A stretch of 64,000 nt of DNA from a virus. Below the pieces are notes generated by a model. It did no database searches. It saw nothing but the letters and a program-made list of their open reading frames with translations, and was not told where the DNA came from. Position numbers and translations under genes: made by a program. Positions 2,557 through 6,095 of the stretch are shown here, in pieces; positions within the stretch are counted from its first letter, which is position 1; each line of letters starts with the position of its first letter. The stretch spans positions 18,716-82,715 of the IMG/VR virus record IMGVR_UViG_3300044837_000097; one strand, given 5' to 3'.

Positions 2557-2635
2557 ATGTCTGGACCAAATCCAGCAGCATCAAACGTAGCAAACGTCCT
2601 AACGGCGCAAGCCATCATCAAAAAGGTGACACTCT
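2557..2635 (+). CDS. Major coat protein, exon 1
   Basis: ATG 2557 opens a frame of 26 codons that runs into a stop at 2635-2637, exactly where the first intervening sequence begins. Joining T2635 to position 3666 makes a TTG codon and restores a frame that continues as MGVTVTYTN. The phase fits, T before the 5' junction is what a group I intron needs, and the last intron base would be G3665. The boundary is inferred from frame continuity and not demonstrated. The expected U-G pair at the splice site was not identified. Confidence 0.65.
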
Positions 2636-2643
2636 AAAACAAC

Positions 2644-2672
2644 TTGACTGAAAGAGTCAAATGTGCTAGAAT
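2644..2672 (+). promoter_or_regulatory. Possible promoter inside intron 1
   Basis: TTGACT, 17-nt spacer, TAGAAT: a good sigma70 match with the same 17-nt spacing as other promoters here. It could drive the intron HNH gene independently of the coat transcript. Caution: TTGACT also forms a local hairpin with AGTCAA (2655-2660), so the match may reflect RNA structure instead. Confidence 0.4.
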
Positions 2673-2911
2673 AGACAATCTCTTCTTATTGACTTGAAAC
2701 CTGAAACGGCAACAAGGCGGAAGCCGAAAGGCACCGTGAGAGACTAAGCGAAGAGACGCCGAAAGGCGATGCGATAGTCCGTTCTTCCGAGAAAACAATC
2801 GGAAGAAGCAAGCAGAAATGACTTGCTCTCTGGAATACACCAGAGTAACAAAACAGCTTCGACAAGGAACTTATCCCTATCGCGTAAGCGAGCAAGTTCC
2901 GAAGGAATGAC

Positions 2912-3583
2912 ATGAAGGTACGAAACATCGTTGGACAGACTTTTGGGAGACTGGCCGCCCAGAGTGCCGCAGGCAGTAACAGCAGGGGGCGAGCACTGTG
3001 GTTGTGTCGTTGTTCTTGTGGCAAAGAGAAAATAGTTCTCGGAGACCACTTAACACGAAAGGATGCCAAAGGCGTAAGGTCTTGCGGATGTTTACAGCAA
3101 GAGAATCGTACAAAGCATGGAGCATTTTCTTCAAATTCAGATATAAAATACCACGTTCGTTATTCTCTTCTGGCAGGCTTGAAGGACAGAAGCCGCAGAA
3201 GGGGCTACGAATCAGACTTAGAAATCTCCGACATACCCGAGATTCCTGAGCTTTGTCCCGTTCTTGGGACTCGTTTGAGTTTGCACCGAAACAGCCACGG
3301 CAAAGGAAAAGGCAGAGGCAGAAATAGACAAGACGCCTCTCCATCAATAGACAGATTTAATTCAAATCTTCCGTACCTTAAAAAGTACAAAGATAATCTG
3401 TGTATTATTTCGTGGCGAGCAAACAAGCTAAAGTCAGACGCGTCTCTTGTCGAGATGAAGAAAGTGGTGGAATATCTTGAAAATTGGGGCACTCAGCAGA
3501 GTGAAAAATCTTCTCTAATTGACTCGAAACCCAACCAAATCGGGGGCAACGAGGCGGAAGCGAATAGCGCCGTGAGAGACTAA
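2912..3583 (+). CDS. Intron-encoded HNH homing endonuclease
   Basis: 223 residues. The N-terminal zinc-ribbon-like module (WLCRCSCG near residue 30, SCGCL near 61) is the kind often found in phage HNH proteins. The C-terminal HNH-type core reads CPVLGTRL near 112, then PSIDRFNSNLPY and IISWRANKLKSD. Such enzymes nick or cut intron-less alleles so that the intron is copied in. GAAGGA precedes the ATG, just after a GGAACTT/AAGTTCC hairpin. Oddity: the last ~25 codons run through ribozyme core B, and the stop TAA (3581-3583) lies in the 5' strand of its P7, so RNA fold and protein tail share the same bases. Confidence 0.85.
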   Translation: MKVRNIVGQTFGRLAAQSAAGSNSRGRALWLCRCSCGKEKIVLGDHLTRKDAKGVRSCGCLQQENRTKHGAFSSNSDIKYHVRYSLLAGLKDRSRRRGYESDLEISDIPEIPELCPVLGTRLSLHRNSHGKGKGRGRNRQDASPSIDRFNSNLPYLKKYKDNLCIISWRANKLKSDASLVEMKKVVEYLENWGTQQSEKSSLIDSKPNQIGGNEAEANSAVRD

Positions 3584-3665
3584 TCGAGAAGACGCCGAGA
3601 GGCGATGTAATAGTCCGGTCTAACAAATGAAAATTGTTAGAGGCAGGCGGAAACGACCAGTCCCG

Positions 3666-3881
3666 TGATGGGCGTCACGGTAACATATACGAACCTAAAG
3701 GGTAATACAAACGCCTTCGTTGGAGCAGCAGAGCGTCGTGTTCAGGGCCTTCACATGGGCATCAACCGTACGTTCTTCCAGTACAACACGCTATCGGGTG
3801 ACATCACCCAGAAGGCGGACGGTACTGTAGGCTCGCCGGAAACCATCACCCAGTTGAGCGCACCCGCTCAAATCGGTGAGT
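3666..3881 (+). CDS. Major coat protein, exon 2
   Basis: The frame runs MGVTVTYTNLKG to APAQIGE and then hits a stop at 3890-3892 within the second intervening sequence. The 5' end follows from joining to T2635. The 3' end is placed after T3881 because joining there to 4828 keeps the frame (giving GESNFSSF); a few nucleotides either way are possible. The segment encodes the N-terminal part of the coat protein. Confidence 0.6.
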
Positions 3882-3930
3882 GGAAAAACTAAGTTATTCC
3901 ACTATAAACTCAGCTATATCAAATTAGGTC

Positions 3931-3960
3931 TTGACAAACCGCAAAGGCTCTTGTTAAGAT
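3931..3960 (+). promoter_or_regulatory. Possible promoter for intron 2 LAGLIDADG gene
   Basis: TTGACA at 3931-3936 with TTAAGA after 17 nt, or TAAGAT after 18 nt, 20-25 nt before the ATG at 3980. It resembles the other sigma70-like promoters of this phage but has a weaker -10. Confidence 0.45.
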
Positions 3961-3979
3961 GAGTTTGAGGAAACTCTAA

Positions 3980-4822
3980 ATGGAAAAGAAAGCGTGGCCG
4001 TATGTGGCCGGATTGCTAGATGCAGAAGGGACAATCCAGATTGGCGTCGATAGAAGGCCAGACGGCGTAATCGGGATGTCGCTTCAAATTATCATCACTA
4101 ATACCGACACTCGACTGATGAAGTGGCTTAGTTCAAACTTCGGGGGGAAGTTCTACCGAAGGAAGAACACTCGCGGCTTTTCATCGAGCGAGTCTCCCGA
4201 TATTTACTTTTGGTGGCTTTTCGGTAAAGAAAAACAAGAAGCATTTCTTCTCGGTATCCTTCCTTTTCTCAAAACAAAGAAACAAGAGGCCCTTCTGGGT
4301 CTTGAGTTTGTTCGTTTGGTCGGGTGGAATAAAGAAAGAAAACTTCAAATAGCGGAAGAAATGAAAGCCGCTAAGGTTAGTGATGTAGAGAAAGATAGGC
4401 AAGTTAATCTGACAAGGCTTACCCCCGCAGAAGACTCGGCATACGCCGCAGGGCTTTTTGATGGGGATGGTTCAATCGGCTCAAGCGTAGAGATTACTCA
4501 AAAGAGGATTCTTCTGATGAGGTGGCTCTTGATGTGCTTTGGCGGAAGGTTTAACCAACGCAGCATGAACGGCGGTAAAACTTTTTTCAGGTGGCGTCTC
4601 TCAGGAAAGAAAAACAAAGAGTTGTTTCTTCTTGATTTGATTCCTCATCTTGTTATTAAACGGGACAGTGCAAGAGCATTGCTCGCTTCTCTTAGAGCAT
4701 CAAAGAGTTCCGCAACGACTGACATGTTGAGTACTTCGCAAGAAGTGAAGACACAGTCTGAACTTACTGGTGACAGTAAGAGCGACCCTGTGAAGACACA
4801 GGACTCCATAAACAAAAAGTAA
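3980..4822 (+). CDS. Intron-encoded LAGLIDADG homing endonuclease
   Basis: 280 residues with two LAGLIDADG motifs: YVAGLLDAEGTI near residues 8-19 and YAAGLFDGDGSI near 155-166. A two-motif monomer folds as a pseudo-symmetric dimer, and the acidic residues in the motifs bind the catalytic metals. It would cut intron-less coat genes at the insertion site. Its last ~35 codons overlap the ribozyme P7-P9 region, so the tail (SSATTDMLSTSQ onward) is probably RNA sequence read as protein. GAGG precedes the ATG. Confidence 0.88.
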   Translation: MEKKAWPYVAGLLDAEGTIQIGVDRRPDGVIGMSLQIIITNTDTRLMKWLSSNFGGKFYRRKNTRGFSSSESPDIYFWWLFGKEKQEAFLLGILPFLKTKKQEALLGLEFVRLVGWNKERKLQIAEEMKAAKVSDVEKDRQVNLTRLTPAEDSAYAAGLFDGDGSIGSSVEITQKRILLMRWLLMCFGGRFNQRSMNGGKTFFRWRLSGKKNKELFLLDLIPHLVIKRDSARALLASLRASKSSATTDMLSTSQEVKTQSELTGDSKSDPVKTQDSINKK

Positions 4823-5666: not shown

Positions 5667-6095
5667 ATGTCAGAAGCAACAAGAGCAGCAAGTCGTCGTT
5701 ATTATCAAAAGAATAAGGAAGCAGAAAAGATTCGTTCGAAGAAATGGCGTCAAGACAACCCAGAAAAATATAAAGAATGGGCAGAGAAGAATAAAGAAAA
5801 ACGACGTGCTGCCAGTCGTCGATATGAATACAATATCACACCAGAAGAGTATGAACGAAAGAAAGCAGAACAAGGAAACAAATGTGCTATTTGCCGACAG
5901 GAAACTAATTTGCTTGTAGTAGACCATAATCATCTGTGTTGTCCATCGAGAAAAAGCCGAGCAGGATATAAAACTTGTGGCAGATGTAATCGTGGCCTCT
6001 TATGTCGTTCATGTAATACAGCAATCGGATTGTTCAAAGAATCGGAGCAAGTCCTCAGCAGCGCAATCCAATATCTCAAAGGATACCAACAATGA
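5667..6095 (+). CDS. Endonuclease VII-like free-standing nuclease
   Basis: 142 residues. The N-terminus is very basic and helical (repeated Tyr/Lys/Arg, KWRQDNPEKYKEW). The C-terminal zinc-bound core is of the recombination endonuclease VII type: CAICRQ near 74, VVDHNH near 87, CGRCNRGLLCRSCN near 106-119. Known relatives resolve branched DNA or act as free-standing homing nucleases. GAGGAG lies just upstream. The gene is A-rich compared with its neighbours and sits next to the interrupted coat gene, which suggests lateral acquisition. Its stop overlaps the next start (ATGA). Confidence 0.85.
   Translation: MSEATRAASRRYYQKNKEAEKIRSKKWRQDNPEKYKEWAEKNKEKRRAASRRYEYNITPEEYERKKAEQGNKCAICRQETNLLVVDHNHLCCPSRKSRAGYKTCGRCNRGLLCRSCNTAIGLFKESEQVLSSAIQYLKGYQQ

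Follow-up and report, generated by a model that had tools for sequence, protein, structure and literature searches.

Few examples are known of tandem group I introns that flank a micro-exon. The main one is orf142 of Staphylococcus phage Twort, where two similar group I introns surround a 23-nt exon with some skipping of that exon (Landthaler and Shub 1999, as summarised in PMC10136302). The same source describes a 34-nt exon with a group I intron on either side in the 23S rRNA of Coxiella burnetii (PMC10136302), a case that differs in lying in an rRNA gene and in combining introns of subgroups IB2 and IA3. A small exon between two group I introns is also found in the ribonucleotide reductase gene of phage phiNIT1, and exon skipping was seen in vitro for the terminase gene of SIOphi (PMC11878797). 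Introns in capsid genes have been described in mycobacteriophage LittleE and lactococcal phage Tuc2009, one of them with a homing endonuclease ORF (PMC3706429).

In the DNA analysed here (the window, a stretch of 64,000 nt from a virus record of 82.7 kb), three introns interrupt the major coat gene, and there is little doubt that the first two, A and B, are consecutive but separate group I introns that flank a 22-nt micro-exon, each of which most likely removes itself in cis. The closest precedent is the pair of introns 2 and 3 of Twort orf142, since in both cases related introns flank a micro-exon of similar size (23 vs 22 nt) in a phage structural gene; the window fits the Twort-type definition of two group I introns with a coding exon of ~20–35 nt between them. 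The Twort introns, however, belong to subgroup IA2 and are not reported to cluster at neighbouring points, whereas the relatives of the present locus show several combinations. Furthermore, the gene is here the major coat gene and an HNH gene lies in the P1 loop of one intron, unlike in orf142, and skipping has been seen in Twort while splicing at this locus is predicted from the sequence. The phiNIT1 and SIOphi cases share the small exon between two phage introns but concern other phages and non-coat genes; in LittleE and Tuc2009 a group I-type intron likewise sits in a phage capsid gene, but as a single intron.

The intron limits (Table 1) were obtained by splice alignment of ~60 loci, in which every intron had to follow an exon ending in U and itself to end in G; low-scoring alignments of distant coat genes were set aside. 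The window was entered as locus L001, whose positions become window positions on addition of 1135. Homologous coat genes without introns read ...QAII-FDKELIP-NLKGN..., and QAIIFDKELIPNLKGN or a near variant is the usual N-terminal reading, most close relatives of the coat protein having no insertion there. In the window the seven codons for FDKELIP stand at 2858–2878, between the upstream ribozyme module and the HNH gene. Introns A and B satisfy the U at exon ends and the G at intron ends, which the alignment imposed, together with the exact coat protein. The joined exons of 62, 22 and 194 nt restore the intact N-terminal coat sequence and, with the last exon and after in silico removal of the third, LAGLIDADG intron as well, a protein of 341 residues, the same length as in the intron-less relatives. 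If A or B is retained, translation ends early, and if the micro-exon is skipped, a stop follows after 22 residues, i.e., the sequence yields coat protein only if both introns are removed and the micro-exon is kept. The placement of both introns rests on the intron-less relatives, the splice alignment, an independent model of the ribozyme core, and the finding of each site occupied alone. Across the 5′ splice site of intron B, GGAACTT in the micro-exon and the intronic AAGTTCC are complementary (2866–2901) and could form a hairpin, present in unspliced RNA only, just upstream of the HNH ribosome-binding region.

Table 1. Features of the coat locus (window positions) and tandem introns in coat genes of relatives
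Feature	Position	Strand	Basis or remark
Coat exon 1	2557..2618	+	MSGPNPAASNVANVLTAQAI + 2 nt; residues 1–21 80–100% identical to intron-less coat genes
Group I intron A, 238 nt, without ORF	2619..2856	+	Splice alignment; exon-final U, intron-final G
Proposed guide sequence of A, GUGA	2626..2629	+	Pairs with UCAU at 5′ splice site; control P 0.10
Core of A	2676..2816	+	Covariance model 151 bits, E 3e-30; covariation; fold
Core A helices	P3 2679–2685/2750–2756; P7 2740–2746/2775–2780; P8 2757–2760/2765–2768; P9 2784–2790/2799–2805	+	
Micro-exon, 22 nt, CTTCGACAAGGAACTTATCCCT	2857..2878	+	Completes codon I, then encodes FDKELIP
Group I intron B, 813 nt	2879..3691	+	Splice alignment; ORF-less introns at same site in L043, L045, L053
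HNH endonuclease ORF, 223 aa, in P1 loop of intron B	2912..3583	+	PHROG HNH/endonuclease families, E 4e-18
Proposed guide sequence of B, GGGG	3486..3489	+	Pairs with CCCU, micro-exon end; control P 0.39
Core of B	3506..3651	+	Covariance model 118 bits, E 3e-23; covariation; fold
Core B helices	P3 3509–3515/3586–3592; P7 3576–3582/3611–3616	+	
Coat exon 3	3692..3885	+	NLKGN...GEW + 2 nt
Third intron, different kind	3886..4819	+	LAGLIDADG ORF 3980–4822; limits uncertain by a few nt
Coat exon 4, up to stop codon	4820..5570	+	tblastn to relatives; ORF
Tandem, L045	A (with HNH) + B		22-nt micro-exon
Tandem, L062	A + C (with HNH)		27-nt micro-exon
Tandem, L051	Codons 308/318		29-nt micro-exon
Tandem, L262			33-nt micro-exon

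The ribozyme cores were followed with a covariance model for which 44 cores from relatives were used, those of the window and its near-identical relatives being excluded. In the whole 82.7-kb record this model passes two cores only, those of A and B, and it found no core in the intron-less coat loci to which it was applied. Among 47 cores, standard pairs fill 95.7% of the pair cells, two-sided changes occur at 29 of the 35 pairs as against 17 expected in shuffles (0/500 shuffles reached as high a count), and sliding the partner columns by 1–3 positions brings the pairing down to 35–43%. Helix P3 covaries at all seven pairs, and its two versions in the window, UCUCUUC/GAAGAGA in A and UCUUCUC/GAGAAGA in B, are each paired at 7/7 positions. 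The cores also contain P7 with the bulged base of the guanosine site; the pair outside the bulge is G-C in 24/47 cores and A-U in 23/47, the bulged base is A or C, and the exchange of G-C for A-U goes together with that of A for C at the bulge. As a pseudoknot, P7 is beyond the reach of the energy program and is supported by covariation at some of its pairs, while minimum-free-energy folds contained P3, P4–P6, P8 and P9 in both modules. The sequence-only reading had described two complete modules of a common plan, with differing but fully paired P3 helices and with both folds maintained next to an HNH gene. The model scores, the strong covariation and the folding of each module all bear this out, the conserved P3-P4-P6-P7-P8-P9 group I fold being present in both and the HNH ORF lying between the cores. 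Rfam, which that reading had proposed for checking the modules, missed the two cores both at the gathering threshold and at E ≤ 10. Its one general model for group I introns is a poor fit to so compact a family, which explains the miss; weak matches were obtained to the third intron and to one member of the family.

The structural case is at its weakest in P1, whose pairing in the window is short, with four pairs each in A and B (control P of 0.10 and 0.39, not significant alone). Next to the proposed guide of A, the 3 nt upstream fit a P10 with CUU of the micro-exon, and the position proposed for the guide of B agrees with that in ORF-less relatives. P1 comprises 6–8 pairs in many relatives (P 0.00–0.04), and the ORF-less introns at the site of B have 6–7 P1 pairs and 4–7 P10 pairs.

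The third intron is of a different kind, with an ORF that matches Pfam LAGLIDADG_1 and a weak Rfam group I match at 4679–4780 (E 0.0027). Its 5′ exon seems to end in A and not in the usual U (exon GTGGAA, intron AAACTAA...AAAAAG, exon TAAC), and a 7-bp helix, AGTGGAA/TTCCACT, surrounds the site; with the alternative, U-ending exon, the end of the intron would be U. L012, L033, L048 and L061 seem to share the A-ending exon, whereas the site in L054 has the normal U. In some loci the alignment cut this intron in two around an exon of 4–5 nt, an artefact of the forced U at exon ends, and these cuts were not used.

Three target points for introns lie within 27 nt of the coat gene, namely site A (after codon 20, with the third base pending), site B (after codon 28) and site C (B + 5 nt). 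Site A holds an intron with an HNH gene in L045 and in L067, where the gene is broken and A alone is occupied, and an intron without one in L062; site B is filled without an ORF in L043, L045 and L053 (B alone in L043 and L053); and site C is filled in many relatives, with or without HNH. The relatives are metagenome contigs, and an individual one could contain an assembly error, but the arrangement of the window is seen in three records, among them L015 and L017, in which the limits of intron A are identical. With the window included, there are five tandem arrangements around exons of 22–33 nt. The 1023-nt coat gene holds the same core family at ~15 sites with two hot spots, the second around codons 308–318, and the sites are clustered, with 10 neighbouring gaps of ≤30 nt where random U positions would be expected to give 5 (P ~0.001). 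It is this density, three target points in 27 nt and five tandems, that is unusual, and the clade-wide density and the repeated tandems exceed earlier reports as far as the openly searchable literature shows. Selection for in-frame skipping was considered and dropped, the micro-exons of 22, 22, 27, 29 and 33 nt being mixed in frame. In L070 (833–1026), a site-C core seems to be split by a short insertion or to be decaying, with partial matches at 833–888 and 935–1026.

The ORF of intron B is an HNH/endonuclease VII-type sequence (phrog_374 and phrog_3322, E 4e-18; a Pfam search with it gave no match). It sits between the 5′ splice site of B and the proposed guide at 3486, and its last codons overlap the core through P2, P3 and P4–P7. 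The position in the P1 loop holds for all HNH introns at sites A, B and C, with a loop of 567–608 nt. The HNH protein tree contains two groups, one at sites A and B and the other at C (support 100/99). In L045 (3799–4539), the HNH ORF of intron A is in frame across the entire core and ends 12 nt before the end of the intron, so that the protein tail and the catalytic RNA use a common sequence. Just 3′ of the coat gene, the window has a second, free-standing gene of the endonuclease VII/HNH type (5667–6095; Pfam Endonuclease_7, E 3e-18).

How the two introns came to stand side by side can be approached from their cores. The cores of A and B are 84% identical over 61 nt, and this stretch would speak for a recent in-place duplication of one intron with the second copy decaying, an origin that the sequence-only reading had also raised. 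Over the 136 aligned positions of the whole core, however, the identity is 76%, the conserved pairs are kept in both, and in the core tree the two fall into different clades: A lies near introns that other phages carry at codons 286 and 311, being closer to these (84%) than to B, and B groups with HNH introns of L045 and L067 at site A and of L021 at site C, with support of 98/92. A recent duplication, contradicted by this tree, is therefore rejected as highly improbable. The tree, the 76% identity and the HNH protein groups point to two arrivals and not to copying in place.

The sequence-only reading had taken the whole of 2636–3665 as a single intron, whereas the intron-less genes and the splice alignment give two; one of its alternatives, two introns with the HNH gene as the exon, was right as to the number of introns and wrong as to the exon, which is the FDKELIP micro-exon, the HNH gene lying inside B. 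The twin-ribozyme introns of protists (Didymium, Naegleria) carry a capping ribozyme nested inside one splicing intron, and the locus had been likened to them, with the upstream module capping or processing the HNH mRNA and the downstream one splicing. Two cores and a homing gene are indeed common to both, but here conserved coat codons separate the cores, the upstream module has its own splice sites and the plan of the relatives' splicing introns, and introns of its family stand alone at site A (L067). At E ≤ 10 this module matched Rfam families by chance only, and none of these was a lariat-capping family. Since each core belongs to its own intron, such a division of labour is unsupported and has hardly any probability left. 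That the tandem mainly splices out as one, with the micro-exon skipped as a means of regulating coat production, a form of the alternative splicing that the sequence-only reading had listed, is somewhat less remote and still improbable. It has the 23-nt exon of Twort orf142 as a precedent for skipping (PMC10136302), and the cores of A and B are related, with similar helices; the early stop after skipping weighs against it, as does the fact that the P3 helices of the window are not interchangeable (one mismatch and one wobble). P3 incompatibility as a general guard against skipping was rejected, as it holds in the window but fails in L045 and L062. Separate splicing of A and B may still give some skipping as a by-product.

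The ribozyme family extends beyond this coat gene: 117 stretches came up in a scan with a DNA pattern, and 54 of the fetched loci had no match to this coat protein; several of the scan loci hold tandem cores. In other contigs, two or three tandem cores interrupt an apparently unrelated phage structural gene, probably a capsid gene (L121 5487–8121, L139 11703–12066, L170 268–964, L103 7012–7400). A related ribozyme (82 bits) lies between two ORFs annotated as ribonucleotide reductase in Roseobacter phage CRP-118 (L064 2500–2659, OR420741.1), a group I intron missed in the annotation of this isolated phage. The coat protein itself has its nearest phage isolate in Tunturiibacter phage Tunturi_3 (37–38%); a 72% identical protein is encoded by L266, filed under the uncultured archaeon isolate LFW-28 and probably a misbinned phage contig.

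With two separate introns at the locus, each core would bind guanosine in its P7 and cut at its own U·G pair, and the exons would then join, the 22-nt exon serving as the 3′ exon for A and as the 5′ exon for B. To judge from its family, the HNH protein presumably cuts coat genes that lack the intron and thereby spreads intron B. One compact ribozyme family would have entered the gene repeatedly at neighbouring points (A, B and C; codons 308–318), and it is from such repeated entry of ribozyme lineages that tandem introns with micro-exons would arise. HNH introns of one lineage are found at points 22 nt apart, and a single endonuclease target zone would account for the clustering of sites. More broadly, the coat gene may offer hot spots of intron capture, in which a single endonuclease target zone admits one ribozyme family at several points with a few bases between them; introns would then shift by 5–27 nt and pile up in tandems around micro-exons. 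This view is tentative and its chances are rather below even; it fits the presence of one HNH lineage at both A and B, the cores of HNH introns common to A, B and C, and the clustered sites.

A coat gene broken by three introns, with one exon of 22 nt, illustrates how gene callers lose coat proteins. The clade offers ~15 insertion points in one essential gene, with intron-less, single-intron and several tandem alleles. It thereby makes testable how neighbouring ribozymes avoid or use skipping when P10 of one intron and P1 of the following one both draw on a 22-nt exon, and whether the local spread of group I introns relies on reverse splicing or on a common endonuclease target.
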